Assembly (NCBI GenBank): GCA_016790705.1
Contig: JAEUOT010000011.1
Coordinates: 37,362-101,361, forward strand
Direction of reading: 5' to 3'
Source of the DNA: Hydrogenophaga sp.
Lineage (GTDB): Bacteria; Pseudomonadota; Gammaproteobacteria; Burkholderiales; Burkholderiaceae_C
Length of the DNA: 64,000 nucleotides
The number at the start of each line of letters is the position of its first letter. Within the stretch, counting starts at the first letter, position 1. This document shows positions 39,801 through 54,038 of the stretch, piece by piece. The translations under genes were made by a program, and so were the position numbers. The notes under the pieces were generated by a model that was not told where the DNA came from, made no database searches, and saw only the letters and a list, made by a program, of their open reading frames with translations.

Positions 39801-40788
39801 GCCTGCTGCAGCGCCCGTGGCGCCGACACCAGCGGCCGATGGCGCCCGCCGGGTGCCCGCACCCGACAAAGCCAAGACGCCGGCCGCTCCAGCCGCGAAG
39901 ACGTCGAACGCCGAACAGCGCCACACCAACTGGGACTTCGGCGAGTTGCCCGAGCTGATGGAAATCCGCAAGGGCGGCCAGACGCTGATCGGCTTCCCGG
40001 CGCTGATCGACGACGGCGACGCCGTGCGCATCGAGGTGTTCGACGAGCCCGAGGTCGCGCTAGCCCGCCACCGCGCCGGCCTGCGCCGGCTGTTCGCGCT
40101 GCAGATCAAGGACGCCCTGAAGTACCTGGAAAAGAACCTGCCCGGGTTGCAGGCCATGGGCGTGGCCTACATGAACGTCGGCAAGACCGACAGCGGCGGT
40201 GGTGGTGGCACGCTGGACGAACTGAAGAACCAGATTCTCGACCTGTCGCTGGACCGCGCCTTCCTGGTCGAACCGCTGCCGACCGATGCTGCGGCGTTCA
40301 AGGCGCGGGTGGACGAAGGGCGAGGGCGCCTGACCCTGATCGCCAACGAGATCGCGCGCCAGGCCGGCGTGATCCTGACCGAATACGCGGCCGCGGCCCG
40401 CAAGCTCAAGGACAGCAAGCCGCCGGCCGACGTGGCGACCGATGTGCAGCAGCAGTTGCAGCGCCTGGTGCCCAAGAGTTTCCTGAGTTCAACGCCATAT
40501 GCGCAGTTGCAGCATTTCCCGCGGTACCTCAAGGCGGTGCAGCTTCGACTGGACAAGCTGCGCGGCGATCCTGCGCGCGATGCCGCGAAGTTCGCGGAAC
40601 TCAAGCCTCAGGACCAGCGCTTCTGGCGTCTGGTGGCCGAGCGCAAGGGCGTGCAGGACGCACGACTGCAGGAAGTGCGCTGGCTGCTGGAAGAACTGCG
40701 CGTGAGCTTCTTCGCTCAGGAGCTGCGCACGCCGCAGCCGGTCAGCGTGAAGCGGATCGACAAGGCCTGGGCGCAGCTCAACACGTGA
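36862..40788 (+). CDS. hrpA: ATP-dependent RNA helicase HrpA
   Basis: This 1308-residue DEAH helicase has Walker A GETGSGKTTQLPK (near 37), DEAHERS (142), SATID and QRAGRCGRV in the helicase core. HA2/OB-fold parts and the long HrpA C-terminal DUF3418 region follow. An Ala/Pro-rich insert (about 977-1015) separates two parts of the tail. It acts on mRNA and stalled ribosomes. TTG 36862 is the only start near the conserved N-terminus. It is the last clear chromosomal gene before the conjugative element. Confidence 0.94.
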   Translation: MSSAPLHIEFPESLPVSARRQEIEQAIRDHQVVIVCGETGSGKTTQLPKIALAMGRGRLNAKPGQRGQLIGHTQPRRIAASSVAKRIAEELKTPLGEVVGYKVRFQDRLSKDASVKLMTDGILLAETQTDPDLRAYDTIIIDEAHERSLNIDFLLGYLRQLLPRRPDLKIIVTSATIDADRFADYFASSKGKAPVLMVSGRTFPVEVRYRPFEESREYDLNNAIADGVDELWRGGAGQGGDILVFLPGEREIREAADHLRKHLSHQPALRNAEVLPLFARLSQAEQDRIFQPHGQRRIVLSTNVAETSLTVPGIRFVIDAGTARVKRYSFRQKVEQLLVEPISQAAANQRAGRCGRVADGICIRLYDEADFNSRSRFTDPEILRSSLAGVILRMKALHLGAVEDFAFLEAPQRRAITDGYQLLSELGAVDEANELTRIGQTLSRLPLDPRVGRILLEAQQRGALDEVLVIASALSLQDVRDRPLEKQTQADQAHKKFDDEKSEFSGTLKLWKWLEDSKGGHGKDHKLSHRQYENLLRENYINVRRVREWRDIHSQLHTVVAEHKWTINTAPASYEQLHLSMLAGLLGNIGCKNDTEDWYLGARGIKFHRHPGANLSKKPGRWIVCAELVETARLFGRSIANIEPQWLEQVGGHLLKKQVLDPHWEKKAGRVSAYERATLYGLVIYQQRRVDYSKVDPAGAREIFIRGALVGHLHDDTWDSKLSFLAANRRTVREVQELEHKARRQDVLVDDELIYAFYDQQLPADVCNGAAFERWYRDASRDNNKLLFLTREELMRHEAAGITTQAYPKTIRLGGVDCAAAYLHEPGDARDGVSVTVPIFALNQVSEDRCDWLVPGMLKDKVQALLKTLHQRPRSRLVPLPATAEKMTEALCQAEVFGVGSLMDALLKRVREATQLPVQRNDIKVDMLPAHHFMHLRVVDEHGRQLGQGRNLGALKAELGSQARGAFQALASLKLKDIATPAAAPVAPTPAADGARRVPAPDKAKTPAAPAAKTSNAEQRHTNWDFGELPELMEIRKGGQTLIGFPALIDDGDAVRIEVFDEPEVALARHRAGLRRLFALQIKDALKYLEKNLPGLQAMGVAYMNVGKTDSGGGGGTLDELKNQILDLSLDRAFLVEPLPTDAAAFKARVDEGRGRLTLIANEIARQAGVILTEYAAAARKLKDSKPPADVATDVQQQLQRLVPKSFLSSTPYAQLQHFPRYLKAVQLRLDKLRGDPARDAAKFAELKPQDQRFWRLVAERKGVQDARLQEVRWLLEELRVSFFAQELRTPQPVSVKRIDKAWAQLNT

Positions 40789-40891
40789 TCCGGTGTTCCT
40801 ATGGCTGCACTCGCTCGCTCAGATCATTGATATTCCACGATGTATATTGCCGCCAATAAATGGCGTCAGTTAGAGCAACTATAGGTTCAAA

Positions 40892-40971
40892 TGACCGAAT
40901 TAGTCGGGCATTTGACCGAATTTCGCAGGCAGGCACGTTGGTTTTCTCTGAACCGGTTCAACCCAGTTCAG
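40892..40971 (+). promoter_or_regulatory. Candidate ParA/ParB operator or centromere sites
   Basis: Upstream of parA are two direct copies of TGACCGAATT (40892-40901 and 40913-40922), 21 bp apart, so on the same DNA face. A perfect palindrome TGAACCGGTTCA (40949-40960) overlaps a wider pair CTGAAC/GTTCAG (40948-40953 and 40966-40971) ending 10 bp before the ATG. Such dyads next to parAB usually serve autoregulation or ParB loading. Confidence 0.5.
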
Positions 40972-40981
40972 CGAGGATCAA

Positions 40982-41935
40982 ATGCTCACTCTCTCAGTAG
41001 TCGCCACAAAGGGCGGCGTCGGCAAAACCACTCTCTGTGCCAACATTGGTGGCTTTCTGGCAGACATGGGATACCGTGTCCTGCTCATTGACGCGGACAT
41101 CCAGCCCGCACTGACCCGACATTTCCAGCTCTCCCACGTCGCAGAACATGGCCTGACGACCATGATTCAGAGGGGCGTCCTGGCCGACGACTGCATCAGT
41201 CATGTGTGCCTCCCTCCCGACAACTTCCGTGGGGACACCTCGGTACTGAACGTTCGCGGAGGTTTCCTGCACCTGGTGCGCTCCGACACCCAGCGGTTTG
41301 ACGAAGAGCGCGGGGTGTTTACCTATGACAGCGCGCTGCAGGATTGGCTTTCGAGCCGCTTGGACAAGCTGGTTCGCATCCGCCTGGCCATCAAAAACGA
41401 GGCCGTCTCCTCCAAATACGATGTGGTGATCATCGACACCCAAGGTGCCGTGGGTCACCTGCAGGATGCGGCAGTCAACGCTGCCGACATGCTGCTCATT
41501 CCGGCCAAGCCGGACATCGTCTCCGCACGGGAGTTCATCAGCGGGTCGCAGCTTTTGATTGACCGCCACGAATCGGCCGGCAACATGGGCTACACGATCC
41601 CGCCGATGCGGGCCGTGATCAACCACTACCAGAACACGGTCGATTCAAAGACCATCACGCAGCACATCCGCGATCAGTTCATCCAGCTCAGCGGCAAGGT
41701 CACGGTGATGGACGCGATGATTCCAGCCATTGCGGCCTTCCCCAAGGCAGCAACTGCCCAAGTGCCCGTTCACTGGATCGATCCGGGCAAGTCGAGCGAC
41801 ATCATGCATCGATTGATGTGGGAGCTGATCGCTTCGCTGGAAGGCAAGTTCACTCCCAATCACAAGGGCGAGCTGCAGGCCCCCACCGAGCACAGCGCGC
41901 TCGACCCCGACACCGATCTGATCCAGGGAGCCTGA
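40982..41935 (+). CDS. parA: ParA-family partition ATPase
   Basis: This 317-residue protein has the deviant Walker A KGGVGKTTLC (near 10-18), a Walker A' DADIQPALTR and Walker B VVIIDTQGA. It partitions the excised circular element or stabilises it by ATP-dependent DNA binding together with ParB. GAGGA precedes the ATG. It overlaps nothing and is followed 2 bp later by parB. The C-terminus (about 290-317) is longer than core ParA. Confidence 0.92.
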   Translation: MLTLSVVATKGGVGKTTLCANIGGFLADMGYRVLLIDADIQPALTRHFQLSHVAEHGLTTMIQRGVLADDCISHVCLPPDNFRGDTSVLNVRGGFLHLVRSDTQRFDEERGVFTYDSALQDWLSSRLDKLVRIRLAIKNEAVSSKYDVVIIDTQGAVGHLQDAAVNAADMLLIPAKPDIVSAREFISGSQLLIDRHESAGNMGYTIPPMRAVINHYQNTVDSKTITQHIRDQFIQLSGKVTVMDAMIPAIAAFPKAATAQVPVHWIDPGKSSDIMHRLMWELIASLEGKFTPNHKGELQAPTEHSALDPDTDLIQGA

Positions 41936-41937
41936 GC

Positions 41938-43803
41938 ATGGCGACCAGGAAAACCCCGGAGACGCTCACGGCAGTGGAGCGAGCCGCTGCGCTGGTCCGT
42001 CAGGGCGCTCAGCTGCCGGCGCTGAGCGTGACGCCCAACAAGCCGCCGCCGACCGCTCGGGCCGATGCCAGGAACGCGGCCTACAACGCCTTGGTCAGTG
42101 CGAACTTGAACCAGGTGGCGAGGCCATCTCGCCCGGCGGTTCCCACGCCATCGCTCGATCCGAAGGCGGACCCGGACGATTCGTTCTCGATGCTGCCCAT
42201 CAACGAGCTGGAGGCCTACGGTCACAACCCCCGCACGGGCAAGAACCCACGGTACGACGACCTCAAGGCCAGCATCATTGCTGACGGCATCACCAATCCC
42301 ATCACTGTCACGCGGCCGCACCACGAGGCCAAGTTTCACCCGTATGGTGGGGGCAACACGCGCTTGGCCATCGCCAAGGAGTTGTACGAGGCGGGAGACA
42401 ACCGTTTCAGCCACCTCAAGGTGATCGTCAAGGCGTGGCCAGGTCACGCGAACGTGATTTCGGCACACCTTGCCGAAAACGAGAACCGTGGCGAAATCTC
42501 GTTCTGGGAGCGCGCCCAGGGCGTGGCCGACTTCAAGGCCCAGTTCGAGGCCGAGCACGGCTCGGTGCTCAGCACAGGGGAACTGGCGCGTGAACTCAAG
42601 TCCCACGGCATCAACTTCGGTGTCAAGGTCATCCAGAACTTTGCCTTCGCGGTCGAGCACCTCAAGCCGCTGGGCCAGTGGCTCATGGCCAAGGAGGTCA
42701 ACGAGATCATCCGACCGGGCCTGGCCGGTGCGATGACCGTGGCGACGTACTTTGGTGTGCGCAACACTGCTGACCTGTTCGAGCCCGTGTTGCTCAAGCA
42801 CCGGGACCAGCTGCTCGCAGGCATGGCAGCGGGCAGCGGACCCAAGGACACCGCCGACGCTGAAACCAAGCCGGTCGAACTCGACGCGGCCGAACTGGTG
42901 ACCGATCTGCATCAGGCCCTGGCCACAGCGGTGGGTGTCTCGCCCGAGGTGGTGCCCTTGATGATCAGCGCGGTGGAATCCAACAGCCGGATCACAGCAG
43001 ACGAGCTGCGGGCCATCCAGATCCGCAAGCCCACCGCTGCTGTGACCGACGAAGGCGCCTCAGCGCACGCTCCAGCACCTGCGCCTCAGCAGCGCGCCTT
43101 GGCCGGTATGCTCGCTGGCGTGCCGCGCGCGCCAGCGCCTGCTTCTGCACCGACGGCATCACCCGCAGCTGCTGGCCAGGGATTCACTGCCGCACCGATC
43201 CAGTCTCCTGCACCGGCTGGCGCTCCCGCACCCGTCCAGCAGCCGCCAGTGCAGCCGATCACGGCGGGAACCAAACGCAACCCGCGTCTTCCCGACCAGG
43301 TCAGAGAGGGCGATCCCACCGCCCACGTGCTCAGCCTGGTGCTGGACATCAGCGATCTGGTGGTGCTGCACGACTGCATCCTTCACATCCCAGAAATGCC
43401 GTTTGGCTACCTCATGGACCTTCCGGCGTCGTTGGAGAACGTGGGGGACAAGACCTTGCCTTATCCGCAGCTGCGCGCGGCCGCGTGGAAATTCTTGGCC
43501 TCGCTCAGCGGGCAGGTGGACCCGCAGTGGTTCTCCTTCGCCGAACCCGAGCAGTCGCGCTGGGCCAGCGCGGCCGTGCAAGGCCCCGACGTATTCCGTC
43601 AGACCTATTCCGGATCGCTGCGCGCCTTCACCTCAGAAACCGGTGACCCCGCGATGCTGCTCGCGGAGGTCTACCTCATGTTCAACCAGCCCGAGCTGGG
43701 CTACCTCACCGTGCAGTTGCTTCGCGCCATGGAGCAACTGCGTCTGGATCACCCCGAACGCTTCGTTCGGACTGTCACACCCGATCCAGACCTGCCCGAC
43801 TGA
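41938..43803 (+). CDS. parB: ParB-family partition protein, long ICE type
   Basis: This 621-residue protein has a ParB N-terminal domain around 75-230, with the nucleotide-binding-type box PYGGGNTRLAI and the following HLAENENRGEISFWERAQG. A helix-turn-helix-like part follows (TGELARELKSHGINFGVKVIQNF). A Pro/Ala linker (about 380-440) leads to a C-terminal domain (about 450-605) of its own type. The length agrees with ICE-type ParB of PFGI-1-like elements and is about twice chromosomal ParB. Confidence 0.88.
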   Translation: MATRKTPETLTAVERAAALVRQGAQLPALSVTPNKPPPTARADARNAAYNALVSANLNQVARPSRPAVPTPSLDPKADPDDSFSMLPINELEAYGHNPRTGKNPRYDDLKASIIADGITNPITVTRPHHEAKFHPYGGGNTRLAIAKELYEAGDNRFSHLKVIVKAWPGHANVISAHLAENENRGEISFWERAQGVADFKAQFEAEHGSVLSTGELARELKSHGINFGVKVIQNFAFAVEHLKPLGQWLMAKEVNEIIRPGLAGAMTVATYFGVRNTADLFEPVLLKHRDQLLAGMAAGSGPKDTADAETKPVELDAAELVTDLHQALATAVGVSPEVVPLMISAVESNSRITADELRAIQIRKPTAAVTDEGASAHAPAPAPQQRALAGMLAGVPRAPAPASAPTASPAAAGQGFTAAPIQSPAPAGAPAPVQQPPVQPITAGTKRNPRLPDQVREGDPTAHVLSLVLDISDLVVLHDCILHIPEMPFGYLMDLPASLENVGDKTLPYPQLRAAAWKFLASLSGQVDPQWFSFAEPEQSRWASAAVQGPDVFRQTYSGSLRAFTSETGDPAMLLAEVYLMFNQPELGYLTVQLLRAMEQLRLDHPERFVRTVTPDPDLPD

Positions 43804-43838
43804 GCCGCTTTCTTCAACCAACCCAGGGGATAACCAAC

Positions 43839-44471
43839 ATGATGATCAACATCAGCGATCCGACACTGACCAAGATGCTTCTGGAGCATGTGGTCGAACA
43901 GGCCGAGGCCGGAGGCCTGGACCAATTGCTGGCCAGCGGCTTCCGGCCCGAACTGGTCGACGATCTCAGGCAGCGGCCGCTGCGCGACTTCTTCTACGCC
44001 GCGCGCAACGGGGGGCTGGCCATGTCGGTGCAAATCGACATCAAGAACCTCGAAGCCTGCCTGTGGCGCCGCGACATTGCCAAGCACACCGAGACGCTCA
44101 AGGAATACTTCATTCGCCATGGCGCGTCCATCGAGCTGCTGCGCAGTCTGTTCACGCTCTCCAAGCAAGAGCTGCAGCGCCTGCGCACCGAGCTGGATCT
44201 GAGCAAGGCCGGCCCCAACGGTCGGCCTCGCATGCCCCCAGCGTCCATCCGCGACAAGATTCACCAGAAATGGCACGACATCGGGCAATCGGCCCCGAAC
44301 AGCCATGAGCGCGACCGCCTCTCGGCGCTGCACAAGGAGTTCAGTGCGTTCTCCATCGCCGCACTGCACCGCGTCATCACGGAATTCGACGACTCGAAAT
44401 CCACCACACCGGCTCCAGTGCAGGAGCTTGGACCTCAGGTGGCGCCTGTCGAGTCCCAATACCTCTCATAA
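43839..44471 (+). CDS. DUF2857 (STY4526-type) protein
   Basis: This 210-residue helical protein resembles the STY4526/DUF2857 family found between parB and the STY4528 gene in SPI-7/PFGI-1 elements: LRDFFYAARNGGLAMSVQIDIKNLE and FFTLS-type segments. It has a likely DNA-binding helical region (SIELLRSLFTLSKQELQRLRTEL). Function is not established. AACCAACATG gives a weak ribosome site. Confidence 0.75.
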   Translation: MMINISDPTLTKMLLEHVVEQAEAGGLDQLLASGFRPELVDDLRQRPLRDFFYAARNGGLAMSVQIDIKNLEACLWRRDIAKHTETLKEYFIRHGASIELLRSLFTLSKQELQRLRTELDLSKAGPNGRPRMPPASIRDKIHQKWHDIGQSAPNSHERDRLSALHKEFSAFSIAALHRVITEFDDSKSTTPAPVQELGPQVAPVESQYLS

Positions 44472-44503
44472 CCCCACGCTCACTCAACCACCAGGAGCTG
44501 ACC

Positions 44504-45205
44504 ATGCCGCAAACCCTGAACATCCCCGTGCCCGAGTCTGCGTACCGCCAACCTCGGCTGGTGCTCAAGAACCGCCGCGCCCGGCGTCGCAGCATGGTCA
44601 AGCCTGAGCTGACCCTGGTGGTCACCCAGGCGCCTGCTCAGGAGCTTCCCCCGTTGCCCATGGCGCCCATCGCTGTACCGATGACCGCACCGGGCACGGC
44701 AGACAAGGCATCGGCATCCCTGGCGACCACCGGCTTGAGCAATCACCACCTGAGCCAGGCTGTGTTGCTCGACTGGCTGGGCAGCCAGCCAGTGGCATTC
44801 CATCGGGTCTATGTGGACGTGTGCGGCAGCGTTACCGCCGCCGTGTGGCTCTCCCTGGTCCTGTCGCTGCTGGACAGTCAGGGCAAGAAGCTGGTGGATT
44901 CACAAGGCATCTTCCGTTTTGCGCTCTCAGCGAGCCAGTGCGAAGCGCAAACCGGTCTGACCTATCGGGAACAGCGCAAAGCCCAGCGGCAGCTGATCGA
45001 GTGCCAATTGCTCGCTGACGAGGGCAAGCAATCTGGTCAGCCCGTTTCCATGTTCGCCCTGGACATGAATGCACTGACCCAGCGACTCCTGTCACACAGC
45101 GCGGGTCTGGCCGAGTTGATCCAGCAAACCTCGTTGGCGACCGAAGTGGACGTGGCCAGTCTGGAGCGCCGTGCGCAGGCCCGCGCGTCGCGCCGCAGAG
45201 CCTGA
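44504..45205 (+). CDS. ICE protein, hypothetical, helix-turn-helix-like middle
   Basis: This 233-residue protein has AGGAGC upstream. The N-terminal 85 residues are basic/Pro-Ala-rich (LVLKNRRARRRS). The middle (about 95-200) is folded, with CEAQTGLTYREQRKAQRQLIECQLL looking like a winged-helix recognition part. In related elements a gene of this size stands before the replication gene. It may be a replication or conjugation regulator; no firm family is assigned. Confidence 0.5.
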   Translation: MPQTLNIPVPESAYRQPRLVLKNRRARRRSMVKPELTLVVTQAPAQELPPLPMAPIAVPMTAPGTADKASASLATTGLSNHHLSQAVLLDWLGSQPVAFHRVYVDVCGSVTAAVWLSLVLSLLDSQGKKLVDSQGIFRFALSASQCEAQTGLTYREQRKAQRQLIECQLLADEGKQSGQPVSMFALDMNALTQRLLSHSAGLAELIQQTSLATEVDVASLERRAQARASRRRA

Positions 45206-45243
45206 GCCGCACCACCGTCCATCTGAAGAACCGGGCAGACGTC

Positions 45244-47217
45244 TTGTTCCAATCCACTGCTTCACTGCGGCAGCCAACGCTTCAAGAGCTGGCGCAATCG
45301 GACACCCCGACAGAAGGAGCGCCATTCGGCGCTCCAGTCGACATGGGAGACCTGCGTGCCCACGACGTGGCGCTGGGCCATCTCAATGCGCGAGGATTCA
45401 TCCAGTTTCACCCTCTGCTGGCGCAGCGGCTGGACAGCTTCAAGGCAGCCATCTTCCTGGGACACGCCTTGTACTGGTCACGCTACCTGGCGCAGGCGCA
45501 ACCCCATCGGCGTGGCTGGTTCTTCATGAGCGCCGCCCAGTGGCGCGAGGCCACCGGCCTGAGCACGCACGAACAAACCTCGGTGCGAGGCGAGTTGAGC
45601 CGGCGCGGGCTCCTAGAAGAAGCCCTGGCCGGGCGTCCCGCCATCCTTCACTACCGGGTCAACCTGCAGGCCACCGCCAGTTTCCTGGGTCTGGAACAAC
45701 TCACCTGGGCGTCCATGGGCGAGCTGTTCCGCTCCTGCATTCGCTTCTACAAGCCGCTGTCGGACATCTGTGGTGGTGTTTCGGCTGGGCTGTACCTGTC
45801 CTACCTCCTGCAGCGACAGTCCTTCGCCCTGCGAAACCCGCTGGCCGACACCGCTGCCGTGGAACTGTTCCCCGGTGAGTTCAGCTACCGGCCCGAACAG
45901 GCACGCATCGCCCTGTGTCTTGGGATCAAGGCACAGCGCAACGCGCGCGAGAAGCTCAAGGCCGCTGGGTTCATCCGCGAGGGCCGCGCCACCAACGAGG
46001 TCGTGGCCACCCGCGTGAACCTGGCGGCGATTGCCTCGTGCCTTCAGGTGCAGGACAAGCCGGTGCGCAAGCGCTCAACGCGCAAGCAGGCTGCGCCTGC
46101 AACCCTGGCAGCGGTGCCTACTGTTCCCGCACCCAAGCAGGGCAAGCCCGCCAAGGGACCGGTGACCGGCCTGAGCCGCTCAACTCTGCCCCAGCAGCAA
46201 CTGACCCTGTTCTCTCCAGTGGGTCTGGCACGGCCGTTGCCGCTTGGCCCTCGATCTACCACGGTCGAGTCTGCGCCAGCCACCGAAGGTACAACCCCTG
46301 CGCCAACTGCACAGGCCGAACAGCTGATCCGGTCGCTGTTCGCACCAAGCCTGGTTGCGCGCGACGGCTTCCATCCTGAATCTGCGGCAGGGCCTTCGGC
46401 GAGCGACTCGGCGCAAAAGTTATCCACAGCACACATGTCGGCTTCTGCTGAATTTGCCCTTTTTGAGAACCCAATTTGCCCTTTTTTGGATGTGAATTTG
46501 CCCTTTTTTAAAAACTATAAAGAACAAGGTATTTCAAGGTATTTACAAACGACTACTACAGCGCCTGTGGATAACTCGGCAGGCGGCAAACCCGGTCGTC
46601 GTCGGGTTGAAAATTCTGAAATCCATAAATCCGAAACAGCCGTTGATCAGAAAATCGACGGAAACTGGTCGAATCGCGGCCACACAGGCGATTTGGTGCA
46701 TAACCAAGGGGTGGGTAGCACCGATGCCGAAAAATCGCCTGTAGGCCCGGAAAATCAATCTGAACAGTCCGCCGACGAAATCCGTACACAGGCCGAATCG
46801 CTGATCCTGCCCGAGCGGTTGGACCACAGTCACCACGCCGGGGTGCTGGCTACCGTCGGCCAGGCACCGCAGGACCTGCAGCAGGCCTTCCTGGACGAGC
46901 TGGCCGGCCACCTGGCCATCCCCAACAAAGTCATCCACAACCCCACCGGCTGGCTGCACGGTCTCATCCGCAAACACCAGAGCGGCTTCGTGGCGCTGGC
47001 GCTGGCGCCCCAGATTGCTGAACTGCGGCTGCGGCGCCAGCGTCATGAAGAACGGCTGGCCAATGCAGGCACAGCACAGCCCGACCTGGACGCCGCTCGC
47101 GAGGGTGAGTCTGAATCAGCCGACGTCGACCACGACTCAGAGGTTCGACGTGAACACCGCCAGCGACTTCAAGAGCTGCGGGCGGCGTTCGTGGCCAAAC
47201 GCGGGGACGCATCGTGA
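45244..47217 (+). CDS. STY4528-family ICE replication protein, contains origin-like DNA
   Basis: This 657-residue protein starts at TTG 45244 or a downstream start. The first 260 residues (ARGFIQFHPLLAQRLDSFKAAIFLGHALYWSRY, WREATGLSTHEQTSVRGELSRRGLL) contain two winged-helix-like units, as in replication initiators. From about 265 to 400 is a low-complexity Pro/Ala/Lys linker. Residues about 400-450 are encoded by the iteron/DnaA-box segment (see separate entry). The C-terminal part (about 520-600, LPERLDHSHHAGVLATVGQAPQDLQQAFLDEL) is again folded. It most likely initiates replication of the excised element. Confidence 0.75.
   Translation: MFQSTASLRQPTLQELAQSDTPTEGAPFGAPVDMGDLRAHDVALGHLNARGFIQFHPLLAQRLDSFKAAIFLGHALYWSRYLAQAQPHRRGWFFMSAAQWREATGLSTHEQTSVRGELSRRGLLEEALAGRPAILHYRVNLQATASFLGLEQLTWASMGELFRSCIRFYKPLSDICGGVSAGLYLSYLLQRQSFALRNPLADTAAVELFPGEFSYRPEQARIALCLGIKAQRNAREKLKAAGFIREGRATNEVVATRVNLAAIASCLQVQDKPVRKRSTRKQAAPATLAAVPTVPAPKQGKPAKGPVTGLSRSTLPQQQLTLFSPVGLARPLPLGPRSTTVESAPATEGTTPAPTAQAEQLIRSLFAPSLVARDGFHPESAAGPSASDSAQKLSTAHMSASAEFALFENPICPFLDVNLPFFKNYKEQGISRYLQTTTTAPVDNSAGGKPGRRRVENSEIHKSETAVDQKIDGNWSNRGHTGDLVHNQGVGSTDAEKSPVGPENQSEQSADEIRTQAESLILPERLDHSHHAGVLATVGQAPQDLQQAFLDELAGHLAIPNKVIHNPTGWLHGLIRKHQSGFVALALAPQIAELRLRRQRHEERLANAGTAQPDLDAAREGESESADVDHDSEVRREHRQRLQELRAAFVAKRGDAS
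46420..46574 (+). other. Candidate replication origin (oriV) inside the replication gene
   Basis: Perfect DnaA boxes TTATCCACA (46420-46428) and, inverted, TGTGGATAA (46566-46574) enclose three repeats AATTTGCCCTTTTT starting at 46451, 46473 and 46495, so exactly 22 bp apart. An AT-rich tract (46502-46560) and a perfect 10-bp tandem CAAGGTATTT (46525-46534 and 46535-46544) follow. Spacing of 22 bp is not a multiple of three, so each copy is read in a different frame. This argues that the DNA, not the protein, is conserved. The layout is that of iteron origins such as lambda ori inside gene O. Confidence 0.75.
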
Positions 47218-47305
47218 AGCCGAGCGTCGTTCTTTCAATCTCGGGGGTAGCGCCGTTCGGTGCTAGCTGCTCATCAAGAAACACGGTGCTCGATATCCGG
47301 TTCCA

Positions 47306-47350
47306 CCAAACGGGGGAACTTGGTAACGGGTACCAGGTTTCCCCAAACGG
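47306..47350. promoter_or_regulatory. Inverted and direct repeats upstream of 47375 gene
   Basis: GGGGAACTTGGTA (47313-47325) and TACCAGGTTTCCCC (47331-47344) form a near-perfect inverted repeat with a 5-bp centre. Direct copies of CCAAACGG stand at 47306-47313 and 47343-47350. The dyad sits 30 bp before the ATG and could be an operator or mRNA hairpin. Confidence 0.5.
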
Positions 47351-47374
47351 TAGAACAAGGTAAGGCAAACCAAC

Positions 47375-47770
47375 ATGACCGACAACACAGAGCTTTTTGT
47401 CAATCTGATGTACCGCCTGAAGAGCCTCAGAAACACCTCGGTGCTGATGTTTCTCTTGGAGGTTCAGGCAGATGAAAAAGAGTACGCATGCAGTGCGCTG
47501 GTTCTGTCGCACCGGTACCTGGGCAATCAAATTTCCCAGCGACAGGTTGAAAAAGCGATTCGGGACTTGGTCGAGTTCGACCTGATTGCTGTTCGTGTCC
47601 ACGCCAACACGAAGACCTATTTCAAGGTCAACGCCGAACAGGTCCGAGCGCTGCTGTCGCAACCGCTGCCCGAGCATCTGCCGGGCATGGATGACCTGCA
47701 GTACCCGTTTCTTCAAAGCTGGAAGGCCGACAGGTCCCCACCTGACGCGCCCCCAAGTCCTGACGCCTGA
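47375..47770 (+). CDS. Winged-helix-like ICE protein
   Basis: This 131-residue protein is led by AAGGTAAGG. The middle (SALVLSHRYLGNQISQRQVEKAIRDLVEFDLIAVRVHANTKTYFKVN) fits a winged helix: recognition helix followed by a beta wing. The C-terminus is Pro-rich and ends in PPSPDA. It stands between the replication gene and the PFL_4669-type gene and may bind the dyad just upstream. No known family name can be given. Confidence 0.55.
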   Translation: MTDNTELFVNLMYRLKSLRNTSVLMFLLEVQADEKEYACSALVLSHRYLGNQISQRQVEKAIRDLVEFDLIAVRVHANTKTYFKVNAEQVRALLSQPLPEHLPGMDDLQYPFLQSWKADRSPPDAPPSPDA

Positions 47771-47811
47771 TCGAAGCACTCTCTGAAAGCCATCAACAGG
47801 AGCAACCCACC

Positions 47812-48984
47812 ATGGCCACGACCACCACATCCCCCAGCACTGGCAAGAAGGCCGGCAAAGGTGCAGCTGCTGCCACCGCCCCGCTGGCCAGCAGCACCGT
47901 TTTCATTCCTGCTGCCAAGAGCATGATGTTCGAGACCGAACCGAACTCTCCGTTTTCCGATGGCTACAGCATCGCAAGGGAGCGCGAAGTGTTGGCCGAC
48001 TTCCTCGCTGACCCCAGCCGCCAGCATGATGAAAACGACCCTCTGTACGACCGCCATATCGAGCTGATCGACCGGGAAGACCAGCTGGACCGGATGAAGG
48101 CGCAGTACCAGTCCTCCAAAGGTGCCGACCCGCTGGTCGAGCACAAGGAGGCGGTGGCCATGAACTTCCTGGGTTCGCTGGTCGATGACGGTGTGGACCA
48201 GATGGCGCTGCACACCAAGGAAGCGTTCAGGATGTTCATGGGGCGCTCGCGTGACCCGGAGAAGAAACTCGAACCGATCATTGGTGGCAAGCGCGTTGCT
48301 GCGGCATTGCGCGCCTTGTGGGTGCTGACCGGCAACGACAACCCCTACGCGGACTGGGGACTACTGCGGCACGAACAGACCATCAAGGAGGTGGGCAAGC
48401 TGCTGGCGAAGCACATTGCCGACGCACAGGCGGCGCTGGACCAGCAGAAGGCGCGCGGGCTGACGTTCTCCGTGCTTCAGTCCTCCAGTCCTCAGGTCCT
48501 GAACCTGGGCTTCAAATCTCCCTACGGCTATGCGGTGGCCCAGTTGGTCACCGACTTCGATTTCTTCGTCCGGTTGCAGAAAACCCTGGAGCGCAAGAAC
48601 CTGCGTTCTGATGCGCAGGTGCGGCAAATCATCACCGAGACCACGCGGGTCATTCGTCGCGTGTTCAATGAGACCGCCCGATTCGACCGCTGGCTCATGC
48701 GCGAGGAAATGAAGGGCCTGTGTCGGGCCGACTTCGTGCCCGACGGTGATCCGGAAGGCGCCAAGCGGGTTCAGTTCGCCGCCGAGGTGTTCGGACCGTG
48801 CCCTGCCGAGGTCTATTCAGGGAAGCTGCAGCCGCGCCATTCGCGCCGCCGCATCCAGATCTCGCAAGCCGAACGCAAGCTGCTGCAGGTGGTCAGCGAC
48901 GAGATGCTGCGTCGCGAGCGCGAGGCCGACGCGGGTGCGCTGGATGAAGCAGCCGCGCAAGAGATTGCCGCAAAGCTGGTCTGA
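47812..48984 (+). CDS. PFL_4669-type integrating conjugative element protein
   Basis: This 390-residue protein has a low-complexity start (1-35). A region with AAALRALWVLTGNDNPYADWGLLRHEQTIKEVGKLLA follows, which matches the PFL_4669 (TIGR03761-like) family, a marker of this ICE class. The later part (FDFFVRLQKTLERKNLRSDAQVRQIITETTRVIRRVF) is helical. The function of the family is unknown; neighbours are replication/maintenance genes. Confidence 0.8.
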   Translation: MATTTTSPSTGKKAGKGAAAATAPLASSTVFIPAAKSMMFETEPNSPFSDGYSIAREREVLADFLADPSRQHDENDPLYDRHIELIDREDQLDRMKAQYQSSKGADPLVEHKEAVAMNFLGSLVDDGVDQMALHTKEAFRMFMGRSRDPEKKLEPIIGGKRVAAALRALWVLTGNDNPYADWGLLRHEQTIKEVGKLLAKHIADAQAALDQQKARGLTFSVLQSSSPQVLNLGFKSPYGYAVAQLVTDFDFFVRLQKTLERKNLRSDAQVRQIITETTRVIRRVFNETARFDRWLMREEMKGLCRADFVPDGDPEGAKRVQFAAEVFGPCPAEVYSGKLQPRHSRRRIQISQAERKLLQVVSDEMLRREREADAGALDEAAAQEIAAKLV

Positions 48985-48988
48985 AGCA

Positions 48989-49570
48989 ATGTTCATGAAC
49001 CTGCCGCAATCGAACCCCTTGTCCGAAAGGGTTGGTGATGAAAGGGCTGTGGTGGAAAGGGCTCCAGTGACAAATCAGAACCGGCTCAAGCCCGTTGTCA
49101 ATCCAGCCCAGTGGGCAAGGCAGGCTGTGGTGGATCAGGCCTGTCAAAAACAGGCTGACACAAAGGCCTTTACGGGTAGGGGCAAATTGTTGGAGCTGCG
49201 CCAACTGTTGACAGAGCTGGATCGGACCGTGGAAGCCATGAAGCAACTGGCCGAGGCGACCAAGGGGGTGCAGGATGGGCAGATGCACCTGGTGCTGCAT
49301 GTCAAGAACTCGACCGGCCTGACGTTCCTGCGCTGGCGCGAGAGGAGTGGTGCATGCCGGCATGTGCCCTGGCCGGAGGCTCAGCAGCGCTTTGCCGAGT
49401 TTGCCCCTAGAACGCGGGACTGGTATGGGCTGGCTTCCAGCCAGGCGGTGCACCTCAACGAACGCCACAAGGAGCTGCGCCGCGCGATTGCCACGGCCCG
49501 CAAAGTGGTGCTCAAGGGTGCCCCAAAGGTTTTCGCTCGCCCGGTGACCTTGGGGGGAGCGCTGTCGTGA
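48989..49570 (+). CDS. DUF3158-type ICE protein
   Basis: This 193-residue protein follows its neighbour by 4 bp. Residues 60-190 (LLELRQLLTELDRTVEAMKQLAEA, QMHLVLHVKNSTGLTFLRWRERSG and LNERHKELRRAIATARKVVL) agree with the DUF3158 family, which stands between the PFL_4669-type and SSB genes in PFGI-1-like elements. Here the SSB gene is 4 kb further on, because other DNA lies between. Role unknown. Confidence 0.7.
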   Translation: MFMNLPQSNPLSERVGDERAVVERAPVTNQNRLKPVVNPAQWARQAVVDQACQKQADTKAFTGRGKLLELRQLLTELDRTVEAMKQLAEATKGVQDGQMHLVLHVKNSTGLTFLRWRERSGACRHVPWPEAQQRFAEFAPRTRDWYGLASSQAVHLNERHKELRRAIATARKVVLKGAPKVFARPVTLGGALS

Positions 49571-50128
49571 AGTCCAGGGACGAGATGCCGGTGAGGCAAG
49601 CCGAAGACTTCACGCTGGGCCTGAGCCGTGAGGACTTTGCCGAGCTGATCACTGGTGGCTTTGATGCTTGGTGCGTGGTGCTCGCCAATAGCGCGGCCCA
49701 ACAACCAGTGCGAATGGGGGGCGCGCGACCGCATCGTTGGGATGCCCTATCGAGTGTTGATGGAGCTGTGGACGCGCGCCGAATCAATGATAGCCGTCTT
49801 GCGTGGAGCGAGCGTGAATAGTGCGTTTGATCCAGATGAGGGCGATTTCGGGTCGCCAGGTCGATTGGCTGTGTGGCAATCAAGATCGCTGCGCTTCCGG
49901 TTGGCGCATCGCTGGAATGTCCTTCGGGCATTCGCTTCTGGCACTGTTTCGTTCCGGTCGATGTGTCTTGGGCTGCGATCAGCACACTGCGTTGTCGCAC
50001 TGGCCCCCAAAACTTCGGGCGCAGGCATGGTCTATGTTTGCCCCGCGTGGATTTCTCACCTTGATGAACTGGCTGTCGGTCCTTTGACGCAGCAGTTTGA
50101 TTTCAAACCATCGAAAGGCGAATCATGA
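49567..50128 (+). pseudogene. Broken or frameshifted hypothetical gene
   Basis: A frame opening at GTG 49567 (MKSRDEMPVRQAEDFTLGLSR and GGFDAWCVVLANSAAQQP) turns into shadow-like sequence after about 49710. A second frame becomes protein-like there (CEWGARDRIVGMPYRVLMELW, ESMIAVLRG) and ends at 50128 with VYVCPAWISHLDELAVGPL. The simplest reading is one gene with a frameshift near 49700. It ends with an ATGA overlap to the TraD-like fragment. No family is recognised. Confidence 0.35.
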
Positions 50129-50325
50129 GTGACACAGAGCGAATCCCCGGCTCGAATCGCGATGCCGGGCATCGAATCATTATTGGGACAACGCGCAGGG
50201 GTATGACCCGCCCGTTTCAAGAATCAGCATCCAAGCAAGGGCATACCATGGTGCTTGGGGACACCCGCACAGGGAAAACCAAACTTGCAACGGATTTGAT
50301 CGAGTCCTTTATCAAGAGCCAATGA
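50125..50325 (+). pseudogene. TraD/TraG-like coupling ATPase fragment
   Basis: This 66-codon frame carries TTRRGMTRPF and GHTMVLGDTRTGKTKLATDLI. The second is the Walker A region of ICE-type TraD coupling proteins (usual form GHTLVLGTTRVGKTRLAE). About 40 residues lie before it instead of the usual 150 or more, and a stop follows right after the P-loop helix. It is thus a remnant of a coupling protein or a very small derived P-loop peptide. GGCGAATC precedes the ATG. Confidence 0.5.
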
Positions 50326-50379
50326 TGGCAAAGAAACTGTCAGTTTCAATTTTCGCCTCCATCTGAATAAGGATCGACT

Positions 50380-50670
50380 ATGCTGATGCTCACAACGTCT
50401 TTGCCTGCTCACTTGAAGCTGGTCAAATCATTTCCCATGATCTGGTCGGTATCTCAAGTTGAAATTTCAAGCAAGGGTCTGCTCAAGAAAGTGCTGCAAG
50501 GCGCAGGCAATGAATACCAAGAAGCTTTTGATGCTCTGAACAGTCAGGTGCCGGCTGAGGCGAATGCAGTGGTCGGTATTCAGGTATCCACCACGTCGCA
50601 GGAGTTCTCCAATGGAACATTTCTCTATGTGACGCTGATTGGAACGCCTGTCCTGTATGAAGAAAACTAA
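50380..50670 (+). CDS. Small protein with YbjQ-like end
   Basis: This 96-residue protein ends in EANAVVGIQVSTTSQEFSNGTFLYVTLIGTPVLYE. This recalls the YbjQ/UPF0145 type of fold, where an Ala-Asn-Ala-Val-Val-Gly strand is typical. The function of that family is unknown. The gene has lower GC than its surroundings and ATAAGGA upstream. It appears to be a foreign insertion next to the TraD fragment. Confidence 0.5.
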   Translation: MLMLTTSLPAHLKLVKSFPMIWSVSQVEISSKGLLKKVLQGAGNEYQEAFDALNSQVPAEANAVVGIQVSTTSQEFSNGTFLYVTLIGTPVLYEEN

Positions 50671-50730
50671 CCCGATCGTATTTGTCACCGGAAATTCAAT
50701 ACAACCCGACAATCAGATCAAAGGAGCATC

Positions 50731-51096
50731 ATGATCTCTTCTAATTCTCCTGCTGCAAATTACATGCGCGTCAAACCCGTTGTAACCGAGTTGCGGGATC
50801 AGGCCATAGCGGCCTTCCTGCTGACGCACGCCGACGAATACATCGATTGGGTGAATTCCCATGTCGAAGACCCAGTCATCAAGGATAATTGCTTGGGATT
50901 CGTGGCCGGGGTTCAAGCTCAGCTGGACAAAGCGGCATTGATTGCATCGCATGGCCAGAAGATGTTGGCCATTACGGCGACGTCTTCTGGCGCTTTGATG
51001 CTCCAGCAGGCCCATGATCGGGCGCTGGCCGAGCACCCGATTTACGGTGGGGTGCTGGGCGTTACCAGTCCATCGAAGGATTCGGTTCGGGCCTGA
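50731..51096 (+). CDS. Hypothetical protein in ICE insertion
   Basis: This 121-residue protein has AAAGGAGC 6 bp ahead of ATG. It is helical, without membrane segment, and has moderate GC. The C-terminal 35 bp overlap, tail to tail, with the leftward gene ending at 51062. No family is recognised. Confidence 0.5.
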   Translation: MISSNSPAANYMRVKPVVTELRDQAIAAFLLTHADEYIDWVNSHVEDPVIKDNCLGFVAGVQAQLDKAALIASHGQKMLAITATSSGALMLQQAHDRALAEHPIYGGVLGVTSPSKDSVRA

Positions 51097-51298
51097 GCGC
51101 CGCCGATTCCAGCCGTCCAGCATGTTCGTGCAGCTTCTCCATCAGGTCGGCCGCTTGGTGTGCGAAACGTTCGTCGTCCCGGGTTTCGACGTAGCTCACC
51201 AGCGAGCGCAGGCTGTCTGCGATCAGGTGCTGCGTCCAGGCCAACTGGGCTTGGGTGACCGGCTGGGACGGGTCTTGGATGGTCGCGGGTGTGTTCAT
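51062..51298 (-). CDS. Small leftward helical protein, start inside hairpin
   Basis: This 78-residue protein (TQAQLAWTQHLIADSLRSLVSYVETRDDERFAHQAADLMEKLHEHAGRL) is the only leftward gene between parA and the IS region. A long helical hairpin is likely. In its mRNA, AAGGAG lies 9-14 nt before the ATG and falls within a 13-bp stem formed with sequence about 76 nt further upstream. Translation may thus be controlled by RNA structure. Function unknown. Confidence 0.5.
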   Translation of the reverse strand: MNTPATIQDPSQPVTQAQLAWTQHLIADSLRSLVSYVETRDDERFAHQAADLMEKLHEHAGRLESAALRPEPNPSMDW

Positions 51299-51400
51299 GG
51301 GAAGGTACTCCTTGAAAGTGGTTGTGTTGATGGAACGGTGTGGGTAGCTCCTGCAAGAGCGTTGACCCCACGCCGTCAATCTACCACGGAGTACCTTCCC
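51299..51400. other. 102-bp nested hairpin (regulatory RNA leader, or recombination/oriT-like site)
   Basis: Perfect 13-bp outer arms GGGAAGGTACTCC (51299-51311) and GGAGTACCTTCCC (51388-51400) enclose inner matched pairs in correct order: GTGGT/ACCAC, TTGA/TCAA, CGGTGTGGG/CCCACGCCG (one mismatch) and GCTC/GAGC at the tip. Together these make one long imperfect hairpin. Read on the - strand it hides the ribosome site of the 51298 gene. Long nested inverted repeats are also usual at oriT, single-strand origins or attC-like sites. Confidence 0.6.
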
Positions 51401-51496
51401 ACCCTTTTGGCTAACTGCTTGATTTACAAGGAAAAAACGCCCTGTTACGGACCTCGTACTTTTGGCCATGCCGATTTAGGGTATTTTTTCCACCAT

Positions 51497-51519
51497 CAAG
51501 ATAATGGAGACTTATCTTG
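51497..51519. promoter_or_regulatory. Palindrome over ribosome site and start of recombinase
   Basis: Perfect arms CAAGATAA (51497-51504) and TTATCTTG (51512-51519) flank the ribosome site TGGAGA, and the TTG start codon is the last triplet of the right arm. Either a protein operator or a translation-blocking hairpin would keep the recombinase low. Confidence 0.5.
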
Positions 51520-53580
51520 AGCGCGCAAGTCGCCGAAAAATCCACGCGACGCGGCCGGCCCTCGGGAAAGGCCCAGGTAGAGCGCGAGGCCGGCCTGCGT
51601 CTGCACGATCTTTCGTTTGCCCGAGCCGTGGTGCAGGGCCTGGCGCCGGCTGCGGCCGCGCAGCGCTACCTGCCCGAGTCGCTGGTGGATGAGCGGGTGG
51701 CCAGCGCCCACCTTCGGCGGGTGTTGCAGATCGCGGCCGATATCCTGAACGGCATCGAGGACCAGGAGGCTGCCAAAGCCCTGTCGGGCTACAGCGGATT
51801 TCCGAAATCACAAGTCAAATCAACAGCTTGCGAAAATCCTGCCATCGCTCGACCGCTGCCAGGCATTCCCAGTCTGGACGAGTTCGCCGAGGAGATCGAC
51901 GCCGAGGACTTCAGCGAGCGCGAGATCCAGGAGCTGTACCAGGAACGGTATGGGGAGCAGTTGGCGGCGACGGCGGCACCAGCTGCGGAAGCTGCAGCGG
52001 TCGACCTCGACGCGGTGCTTCGGGCTTTGGGCATCGTTCAGTCGCGTGGCGTGGTGTTGCCCAAGCCCACGGACCCGGTGCGTCTGTGGTTCAGCCAGAG
52101 CCTGACCAACAGGCTGGTGGATGTCCAGATCGTGCTTCTGCAGGATCTGGTGCAGTACGTGAACCGCCACGGGCGGCACTGGTACAAGCATGTCCCTGGC
52201 GTGGGCCAAGACCGTGCCAGGCGGCTTGTCGGGTGGCTGGTGCAGCATGAGCCCTTCCTCGACCTGAGGATCGCTCTACGGAGCCGCTGGGACAGCGAAG
52301 CCGACGGTTCGTTGGACCGTATGGAAAAACATACCGTATGGTTTTCCATACCATCCCCGGCGCTGGGACAGAGCCTGGTCGAGCAGCCCGGCACAGCAGC
52401 GATGGCCGAGGGTTCGCTCCCTGCAGGCGGGGGTGACTCGCTGCGCTCGATGGGGCCCAATGCCCTGGGCGTGCAGTCCGACGTGGACGCCGTCAAGGCC
52501 TGGCTGGACACGCTGAGCTTCAAATCTCCTCACACCCGCACCGCCTACGCTCGGGACGCGCAGCGCCTGCTGCTATGGGCGCATGAGCGCGGCAAGAAGC
52601 TGTCGACCCTGACCGTCACAGACGCGGCCGAGCACGCCCGGTTTCTGGTCGATCCGCCGCCGCACTGGTTGTGCGAGCTGCCGACACGAAGGGCAGACGC
52701 TGCATGGCGCCCGATGCGCGGACCGCTCTCGGATGCCAGCGCGGCGCGCGCGCTGGCCGCCATCGGGCACCTGTATGGCTTCCTGGTCGAAACGGGTTTC
52801 CTGGTGGCCAACCCGTTCTCGCGCATCCGCAGGGCCTCTGGGCGCGGCAGAGCACCGCAGATCGACACGAACCGCTCGTTCCGGTCCTACCACCTGCAGA
52901 TGCTCGTCGGTGTCGTGCACGCCATGCCGCCCGGACCGGCACGGCGCCGCGCGCGGGCGCTGTTGATGCTCATGGCGTCCACTGGTGTGCGGATTGGCGA
53001 GTTGGGCGGCACCTGGGGTGATGTCATCACCACCCGGACGAACTGGGAGGAGGGCGACGCCACAGGGGATGCCCAGTGTCTGCGCGTGATCGGCAAAGGT
53101 GGCAAGGAGAGGCTGCTTCCCTTGAAGCCTTCCGTGTTGCAGGTGCTGCAGAGGCACCTGGACGACCGCAGGGCGCTGGAACAGCAGGGCGTACTGCCGG
53201 CCCTGGACCTGAGCAAAACACCGCTGATTTCTGTGGTGGCCAAGCCGGTGGGGCCGGACCTGGCAAAGGACAACGGCGGGCTGTCGGTAGCGGGCATTCA
53301 CCGGGTGATCAAGGCGCTGTGCGAGCGTGCAGCCAAGGGCTGTGCGGATGCACGCCTGGCTGCGGAGTTCCGCGCGGCCAGCGCGCACTGGATGCGCCAC
53401 ACCTTCGCGCATGCGATGCTGCGGGCCAGCGGTGGTGATCTTCCTGTGACCCAGCAGTTGCTTGGGCATGCATCCATTGCCACCACCGGCATCTACGTCA
53501 AGGCAGACATGAGCCAGCGCCTGAAGGCTGTGATGGCGCTGCCAGTCATGTTCGATTCGGGAGGGCTGGTCCGCCGATGA
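51517..53580 (+). CDS. Large tyrosine recombinase with N-terminal DUF3701-like domain
   Basis: This 687-residue protein starts at TTG (TGGAGA 7 bp upstream). The first 290 residues (LHDLSFARAVVQGLAPAAAAQRYLPE, PTDPVRLWFSQSLTNRLVDVQIVLLQDLVQYVNRHGRHWYKHVPGVGQDRARRLVGWL) match the phage-integrase-associated DUF3701 type. Core-binding and catalytic domains follow: Arg in STGVRIGELG (near 491), HWMRHTFAHA (near 624-628), LLGHASIATTG and IYVKAD (Tyr near 659). It lies inside the ICE, away from its end, and may be an extra mobile gene that entered between DUF3158 and SSB. Confidence 0.85.
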   Translation: MSAQVAEKSTRRGRPSGKAQVEREAGLRLHDLSFARAVVQGLAPAAAAQRYLPESLVDERVASAHLRRVLQIAADILNGIEDQEAAKALSGYSGFPKSQVKSTACENPAIARPLPGIPSLDEFAEEIDAEDFSEREIQELYQERYGEQLAATAAPAAEAAAVDLDAVLRALGIVQSRGVVLPKPTDPVRLWFSQSLTNRLVDVQIVLLQDLVQYVNRHGRHWYKHVPGVGQDRARRLVGWLVQHEPFLDLRIALRSRWDSEADGSLDRMEKHTVWFSIPSPALGQSLVEQPGTAAMAEGSLPAGGGDSLRSMGPNALGVQSDVDAVKAWLDTLSFKSPHTRTAYARDAQRLLLWAHERGKKLSTLTVTDAAEHARFLVDPPPHWLCELPTRRADAAWRPMRGPLSDASAARALAAIGHLYGFLVETGFLVANPFSRIRRASGRGRAPQIDTNRSFRSYHLQMLVGVVHAMPPGPARRRARALLMLMASTGVRIGELGGTWGDVITTRTNWEEGDATGDAQCLRVIGKGGKERLLPLKPSVLQVLQRHLDDRRALEQQGVLPALDLSKTPLISVVAKPVGPDLAKDNGGLSVAGIHRVIKALCERAAKGCADARLAAEFRAASAHWMRHTFAHAMLRASGGDLPVTQQLLGHASIATTGIYVKADMSQRLKAVMALPVMFDSGGLVRR

Positions 53581-53645
53581 ATTCCACGGTCATGCAGGAC
53601 TGGTGCACCTGCGCGGCCGATCTACCCGCACCAAGGAGAACTGCA

Positions 53646-54038
53646 ATGCAGAACATGTTCATCGGCAAGGGCAATCTGGGAGGCCCGGTCGAACTCAAGC
53701 GCCTGGATGGCCGCAATGGCGAGTTTGTCGTCGCATCCATGCGGGTGATGTTTGCCCGCTGGGGTCAGAACGAACAGGGTGACCTGGAACAGGTGGGTGG
53801 CTTCTGGCGAGAGGTGGAAATCTATGGCGAGAAGGCCGAGGCCTGCGCACGTCATCTGAAGAAGGGCGCCCGCGTCCTGGTGATGGGCGAAGAACGTGAC
53901 TTCATGGCCACCGACAAGGAAACGGGCGAGCAGGTGCAGGTGATCAAGATCGTTGCGGACGATGTGGCCCTGCAGCTCTCGCGCATCGAGTCGATTGTGT
54001 TTCAGCCCTCGCGCGCCAAGGAAGAAGTTCCTGCCTGA
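53646..54038 (+). CDS. ssb: Single-stranded DNA-binding protein, ICE type
   Basis: This 130-residue OB-fold protein (NMFIGKGNLGGPVELKRL, GGFWREVEIYGEKAEACARHLKKGARVLVMGE) has AAGGAG before ATG 53646. It lacks the acidic DDDIPF-like tip of housekeeping SSB, as usual for ICE-borne SSBs. It coats single strands in transfer or replication. The longer upstream frame is rejected because it overlaps the recombinase end without a ribosome site. Confidence 0.88.
   Translation: MQNMFIGKGNLGGPVELKRLDGRNGEFVVASMRVMFARWGQNEQGDLEQVGGFWREVEIYGEKAEACARHLKKGARVLVMGEERDFMATDKETGEQVQVIKIVADDVALQLSRIESIVFQPSRAKEEVPA

Follow-up and report, generated by a model that had tools for sequence, protein, structure and literature searches.

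Can the coding sequence of a replication initiator also serve as the origin from which its element is copied? The question is raised by a 64,000-nucleotide stretch of Hydrogenophaga sp. DNA (the whole of which we call the window), where a block of repeats at 46420-46574 lies inside an open reading frame. A first-pass annotation had read this block as an iteron-type origin of an ICE, placed in its initiator gene as in lambda O. Having examined the gene, its surroundings and its relatives, we consider it probable, on the strength of sequence comparisons, that 46420-46574 is the vegetative replication origin of an ICE-type element, an iteron origin like that of lambda O, contained in the part of the gene that encodes the linker of its own initiator.

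Window-like genes are termed class B here and STY4528-family genes class A. The gene in the window is made up as follows.

45244-47217, plus strand: initiator gene of 657 codons (listed start TTG), encoding an O-like N domain, a variable linker and an STY4528-family C domain
45403-45675, plus strand: N-domain coding part matching phrog_9773 'replication initiation O-like' (E = 1.7e-14)
46096-46785, plus strand: variable linker holding the origin candidate, from the 48-protein alignment
46789-47070, plus strand: C domain common to both classes, coding part (approximate), from hhalign

Codons 393 to 444 contain, in this order, a DnaA box, three iterons, an AT-rich tract with a tandem repeat, ACGACTACTAC and a second DnaA box, and the frame 45244-47217 is uninterrupted across the whole repeat block. 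The individual elements are these.

46420-46428, plus strand: DnaA box 1, TTATCCACA
46451-46464, plus strand: iteron 1, AATTTGCCCTTTTT, perfect copy
46473-46486, plus strand: iteron 2, AATTTGCCCTTTTT, perfect copy
46495-46508, plus strand: iteron 3, AATTTGCCCTTTTT, perfect copy
46490-46549: candidate unwinding element, the lowest-G+C 60 bp of the gene, overlapping iteron 3 and the tandem repeat
46525-46544, plus strand: two copies of CAAGGTATTT in perfect 10-bp tandem, with few changes in L002-L005
46549-46559, plus strand: ACGACTACTAC, ACnACnAC-type element
46566-46574, minus strand: DnaA box 2, TTATCCACA
46595-46604, plus strand: GTCGTCGTCG, downstream partner of the ACnACnAC-type element

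The two boxes face inward, enclosing the iterons, the AT trough and the tandem repeat, and both belong to a perfect inverted repeat with 12-nt arms (46418-46429 / 46565-46576). The iterons are non-palindromic and follow one another at steps of 22 and 22 bp. G+C content is 0.387 in 46425-46574, compared to ∼0.62–0.70 a few hundred bases to either side and 0.62 for the gene as a whole. These coordinates confirm the anatomy described at first pass, namely two opposed DnaA boxes, three repeats 22 bp apart, an AT-rich tract and a 10-bp tandem repeat, all within the coding frame. In composition and sequence, the block has the marks of an iteron-type origin (phased direct repeats of ∼20 bp, an AT-rich neighbouring region and DnaA boxes), and its iterons lie between the domains of an O-like initiator, as in a lambda-type in-gene origin.

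Within the 64-kb window, the pattern TTATNCACA is found at 3 sites, versus 0.22 expected. A third TTATCCACA, at 60019-60027 on the minus strand, falls within an IS21-type helper ATPase gene and is probably there by chance. Elsewhere in the window, AATTTGCCCTTTTT has one site only at up to 2 mismatches (22432), and an exact pair of AATTTGCCCTTTTT at a distance of 6–10 bases is unique to this place in the 3.75-Mb assembly as a whole. On the minus strand, box 2 is followed by GGCGCTG, two TAG triplets and then TCG, as seen by eye. This layout of a DnaA box, 7 bases and TAG TAG resembles the BUS/DnaA-trio arrangement, but the published search rule requires three or more trios (3'-NAN-5') within 16 bp (PMC8287927), and the window has two adjacent TAG triplets. 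We rejected the DnaA-trio reading for this reason.

Codon usage points to selection on the DNA of the block in the clade of the window. For identical residues, the same codon is used in 121/134 cases within residues 403-436, compared to 941/1971 outside (Fisher p = 3e-24); the six pairs compared, drawn from L001, L003 (the H. flava locus), L004 and L005, are not independent. None of 100 synonymous-codon shuffles reached the repeat score of the window gene, and the three iterons encode the dissimilar peptides EFALFE, ICPFLD and NLPFFK. The earlier suggestions that the repeats specify different peptides and that selection acts on DNA are thereby upheld. Across all five aligned DNA sequences, the tract AACTATAAAGAACAAGGTATTTCAAGGTATT is nearly invariant. 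L002 has both boxes unchanged. Box 1 has one mismatch in each of L003, L004 and L005; box 2 has 1 mismatch in L004 and 2 in L003, and is not kept in place in L005. In 14 genes of the GTAG clade, Ser is encoded by AGT in 57/61 instances within a Ser-run/Thr-run segment versus 42/416 elsewhere in those genes, and Thr by ACT or ACA in 60/64 versus 81/344. This segment was located by a protein-level search, which replaced an earlier, circular version based on a DNA pattern.

These data bear on the alternative that the region is a low-complexity protein linker whose DNA has no role. Such an explanation would suit the very low pLDDT of the linker, in a model where the N domain is low as well, and most class B members share a short in-frame peptide, YI..TTTT, leaving some room for protein-level selection. 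But steps of 22 bp shift the reading frame, and the codon choice is both extreme and conserved; we regard this alternative as highly improbable.

The protein itself combines an N domain and a C domain with different affinities. The O-like family phrog_9773 is matched by 16/16 class B proteins and by at most 4/18 class A members. Between the C domains of the two classes, hhalign gives a probability of 98.6 (E = 1.1e-15, 125 columns, A3 versus A2); it reported this C-terminal part only, with no N-domain alignment of class A against class B. We take from this, together with the distribution of the O-like match, that any relationship between the N domains of the two classes is a distant one at most. 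The initial designation as a STY4528-type protein is sound as far as C-domain homology goes; with the STY4528 model NF040582, however, the window protein scores 26.9 bits, over residues 449-581 only, far under the cut-off of 130. Pfam returned zero matches for the window protein (E ≤ 0.1) or for its N-trimmed form (E ≤ 0.5). The AF2 model of the whole protein has a pLDDT of 37, and a model of the N domain from five sequences has a mean of 61; the latter suggests two winged-helix-like units. Neither model found a PDB match at E ≤ 0.001 in fold searches, nor did the N-domain model find one in a viral library at the same threshold. A PDB sequence search yielded nothing useful, and a scan of viral_contigs found no relatives.

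To what extent is the arrangement shared? We took up 53 genes, ranging from Hydrogenophaga to Haemophilus, and kept 48 after dropping 5 that were redundant. Three loci (L017, L018 and L052), each an internal-stop piece or truncated, had been removed beforehand, and L006, L028-L034 and L045, which repeat other loci, were excluded. Outside the counts are also L020-L027 (N-domain matches), L055-L065 (partial or C-domain matches, with L057 being the window itself) and L085-L092 (screened only). With the window's own genome included each time, NF040582 was matched in 29/369 genomes of a class-wide sample (15 above the cut-off) and in 29/300 of an order sample (11 above the cut-off), and the window protein in 23/399 of a family sample.

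At least three iterons, significant at p ≤ 5/100 relative to synonymous-codon shuffles, are present in 35/48 genes. A 36th gene, L066, passed the repeat test through its GTAG arms only, and 41/48 have either repeats or inverted repeats that are significant. The AT-richest 60 bp lies within the linker in 47/48 genes, the linker averaging 24% of the gene. In 25 of the 35 genes with iterons, the centre of the trough is 4–42 bp beyond the last iteron, and in 10 it is elsewhere. The position of the block is kept in most relatives, and iteron sequences are specific to clades, as exemplified by TTGCCCTTTTGTCGAAACT, TGCCCAAACCGCCAAACTTGA, ACTTCAAAATCTGAAGT, GTTCGGATTCCGAAC and CTTCGGATTCCGAAG. Exact copies of TTATNCACA occur inside the linker or at its edge in 10/48 genes (12 boxes, with 1 box elsewhere in these genes), compared to a mean of 0.83 genes and a maximum of 3 in 200 rounds of the null. 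Often, the AT tract is followed by alternating CG/CA stretches such as GCGCGTGCGCGCG, noted by eye in L074-L077, L012, L040, L041, L047 and L048.

Significant repeats are absent from 12/48 genes. These are L005, L035, L011, L041, L042, L043, L044 and L046, in which repeat-like copies are still visible by eye, and the clade L081-L084, in which no iterons can be seen in the linker, though the arms and the AT tract are kept. A search of the flanks of L081 and L084 found no closely spaced repeat family. The first-pass annotation had suggested looking in homologues for repeats and DnaA boxes at this place, and had named their absence as the outcome that would count against it. For repeats, the result is mostly the opposite of absence, with L081-L084 among the exceptions, whereas exact boxes are confined to the 10 genes mentioned. 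The proposal of a lambda-O-like origin within the initiator gene thus retains its anatomy, the conserved interdomain position and the O-like domain, while its DnaA boxes and significant iterons do not extend to every member.

The spacing of the iterons is informative in its own right. Same-strand spacings (n = 71) cluster near multiples of 11 bp, at 22, 33 and 44, with R = 0.73 for an 11-bp period and a Rayleigh p of 2.7e-17; after collapsing to n = 59, p is 5.9e-13. The signal at a 3-bp period is less pronounced (R = 0.23 and 0.28, p = 0.02 and 0.009). Binding of protein along a single face of the helix would be expected to give multiples of ∼11 bp.

In class A, inverted arms flank the AT tract on both sides; they vary in sequence by clade and remain complementary, or nearly so: GTAGTAGTAGT/ACTACTACTAC, GTACAGTACGTA/TACGTACAGTAC (one mismatch), CAGTACAGTAC/GTACTGTACTG and CGGTACGTA/TACGTACCG. 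That arms differ between clades yet remain (nearly) complementary is a further point against a linker in which only the protein matters. A linker-wide test for inverted repeats was positive in 19/48 genes at p ≤ 5/100, some of the repeats, including that of the window, lying elsewhere in the linker. Anchored to the trough, the test was positive in 24/48 genes at p ≤ 3/60, with 14 exceeding all 60 shuffles; some of these hits (e.g. L040, L047, L054, L068 and L069) are palindromic iteron pairs, not arms. Neither the window (52/60) nor most class B genes were significant in the trough-anchored test, and so we dropped the inverted repeat as a general origin part and treat it as a clade trait of class A.

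The ACnACnAC-type element begins 25–36 bp past a TATA-type motif in 13 of the 16 class B loci scanned and 44 bp past it in L019; in L004 and L009 the motif was unmatched. In the window, ACGACTACTAC and GTCGTCGTCG form no significant inverted repeat, and complementary arms of this motif reached p ≤ 1/60 in L011 and L012 only.

Around the gene, the window contains the following genes.

40982-41935, plus strand: ParA-type ATPase
41818-43803, plus strand: ParB, ICE_PFGI_1 type (TIGR03764; E = 1.1e-39, 136.7 bits, just below the cut-off of 143.75)
43839-44471, plus strand: DUF2857 protein, same module
47812-48984, plus strand: PFL_4669 / AcaB family protein, same module

The order ParB, DUF2857, initiator, PFL_4669 is the same as in ICEHin1056 and pKLC102. 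A tyrosine recombinase and a SNF2-type helicase are also encoded downstream of the initiator gene, and the small frame 53577-54038 resembles, on inspection by eye, a single-strand-binding protein, which such a module would be expected to include. A T4SS ATPase and an ICE TraI-family relaxase are encoded in the same genome but on another contig (C66). For L005, the contigs of the initiator gene and of the ATPase, each of 187,008 bases, are taken to be one. L002, from Hydrogenophaga sp. NFH-34, aligns to 40832-52214 of the window at 95.6%, with no match to the hrpA gene (36862-40788) that precedes the element; this places the left end of the element near 40.8 kb (40788-40832).

Some relatives are found on plasmids. 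In pZDHY95 (88 kb) and pNBBC01-4 (72 kb), searched over the whole plasmids and within the mismatch limits used, the iterons are solely in the initiator gene; wherever we checked, they are confined to it. Another initiator is listed for the full plasmids pNBBC01-4 and p79s3p. For the circular 88-kb pZDHY95-VIM-2, the only other initiator listed is a 'STY4534 family ICE replication protein', in a PLSDB gene table that is incomplete. Given these entries, we discarded the idea that such plasmids depend on this gene alone. Cumulative G+C skew has its minimum near the gene in 1/3 plasmids, over a small range, and we do not count it as an independent mark of the origin.

A second array lies directly 3' of the gene.

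47294-47330, plus strand: first 37-bp unit of the 3' array
47331-47367, plus strand: second 37-bp unit, 70% identical

The 37-bp repeat of the window was matched by 0/50 shuffles. Among the 47 loci (of 48) with enough flank, self-match is strongest at a lag of 36 bp in 18 and of 37 bp in 2 (the window and L049), and a lag of 36 was best in 50/2350 shuffles. The lag is significant (≤2/50) in 24/47 loci: 36 bp in 16, 37 bp in 2, 56–57 bp in 3, 47 bp in 2 and 33 bp in 1. Many members have a palindrome-rich 3' array (e.g. L003, L007, L016, L035 and L067-L073), with unrelated sequences. As judged by hairpin and repeat content over 230 bp past the gene, 17/24 loci are significant, the window and six others not being among them; the 24 were hand-chosen and comprise the window, L002, other class B loci and named plasmids. 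The 3' array could serve in partition or make up the second half of the origin.

This array is relevant to another interpretation, namely that the repeats in the gene are the centromere (parS) of the upstream ParA/ParB pair and not an origin. The genes for ParA and ParB do lie directly upstream, and the palindromic form that the repeats take in many relatives (e.g. GTTCGGAATCCGAAC) would suit binding by a dimer. However, the repeats sit inside an O-like initiator gene whose linker carries the AT-richest stretch and, in some members, exact DnaA boxes (in the numbers given above), and the separate, palindrome-rich array 3' of the gene, mostly of 36-bp period, offers an alternative parS candidate. 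All told, a centromere within the gene seems unlikely to us, and we continue to favour an origin.

How does such an origin compare with known systems? The iterons of ori-lambda lie inside the O gene, between the DNA-binding N domain and the C domain. The block in the window is like it in this placement and in the O-like N domain, recognized by PHROG; unlike lambda, it has three 22-bp iterons, flanking DnaA boxes, an ICE-type C domain and a second array 3' of the gene. Lambda O binds four iterons (PMC10797057). Direct repeats, an adjacent AT-rich region, DnaA boxes and a cognate initiator are shared with the iteron origins of RK2 and F (PMC10797057), from which the window differs in that its origin candidate is within coding sequence and its protein lacks a Pfam match.

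The first-pass statement that no such origin is known for this family is weakened by putative oriVs published in 2007 and 2009. In ICEHin1056, the putative oriV comprises iteron-like and indirect repeats and an AT-rich region, and is consistent with pKLC102, SPI-7 and PAPI (Juhas 2007, PMC2258188). For PFGI-1, it was placed upstream of PFL_4669 and divided into an A+T-rich half, which contains four palindromes of 23 bp, and a G+C-rich half, which contains repeats of 46 bp; PFGI-1 was said to encode no Rep protein (Mavrodi 2009, PMC2647930). pKLC102 has the same layout, with palindromes within the gene and an array after it, ∼15 copies of 57 bp at the place of the 3' array. The iterons of the window, by contrast, are not palindromic. 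The accessible parts of the PFGI-1 and ICEHin1056 accounts (PMC2647930, PMC2258188) contain no in-gene location, O-like class B, 11-bp phasing or codon evidence. An origin that forms part of the initiator coding region is, for this ICE family, likewise undescribed in the literature searched, which was largely without subscription papers and included the accessible parts of PMC4489591, PMC7685784 and PMC4063739. The arrangement is, in short, a lambda-O-like one in a family with an origin already proposed nearby.

A remaining alternative is that the element is copied by relaxase-driven rolling circle from oriT, the site in the gene being a relict or auxiliary origin used, at most, in recipients. 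In ICEclc, replication of the excised element is reported to depend mostly on relaxase and oriT1, and traI and oriT1 mutants have fewer multi-copy cells, with a very small remainder (PMC6561031). The TraI-family relaxase and T4SS ATPase on another contig of the same genome also fit this explanation. Against it, the codon conservation points to selection in the clade of the window, and we judge a relict origin to be slightly less likely even than the centromere.

If 46420-46574 is indeed the origin, a mechanism can be suggested, and we infer its steps from the parts present. The O-like N domain would bind the phased iterons, and the bound array would strain the DNA such that the AT-rich trough opens at and just 3' of it. 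In the window element, host DnaA at the two flanking boxes would help the opening. The conserved C domain would recruit the replicative helicase, and replication would start at the block. That helicase would be element-coded DnaB in ICEHin1056-like relatives; in ICEHin1056, dnaB lies between the ParA and ParB genes. In the window, that interval, the one considered, has no room for a dnaB frame, and the helicase here is therefore probably host DnaB.

Virulence, resistance and degradation genes are among the cargo of elements of the pKLC102, SPI-7 and ICEclc kind. For the replication of these elements once excised, the literature, as far as accessible, invokes both a postulated oriV and relaxase-driven copying. 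A broader proposal, which we put forward only tentatively and hold to be somewhat less probable than its converse, is that this widespread ICE family represents a distinct replicon class in which the gene is the origin. The DNA-binding domain and iterons would be exchanged together while the C domain stays constant; in many clades the inverted arms on either side of the AT-rich tract would change in concert (GTAGTAGTAG/CTACTACTAC; GTACAGTACGTA/TACGTACAGTAC, which has one mismatch; CAGTACAGTAC/GTACTGTACTG); and the palindrome-rich array, with a period of 36 bp in most cases, would be fixed just 3' of the gene. Even without this broader proposal, an in-gene origin and its cognate initiator would constitute a compact replicon, testable on a short DNA segment, and would explain why the linker of the protein is highly variable despite the kept layout of its DNA.
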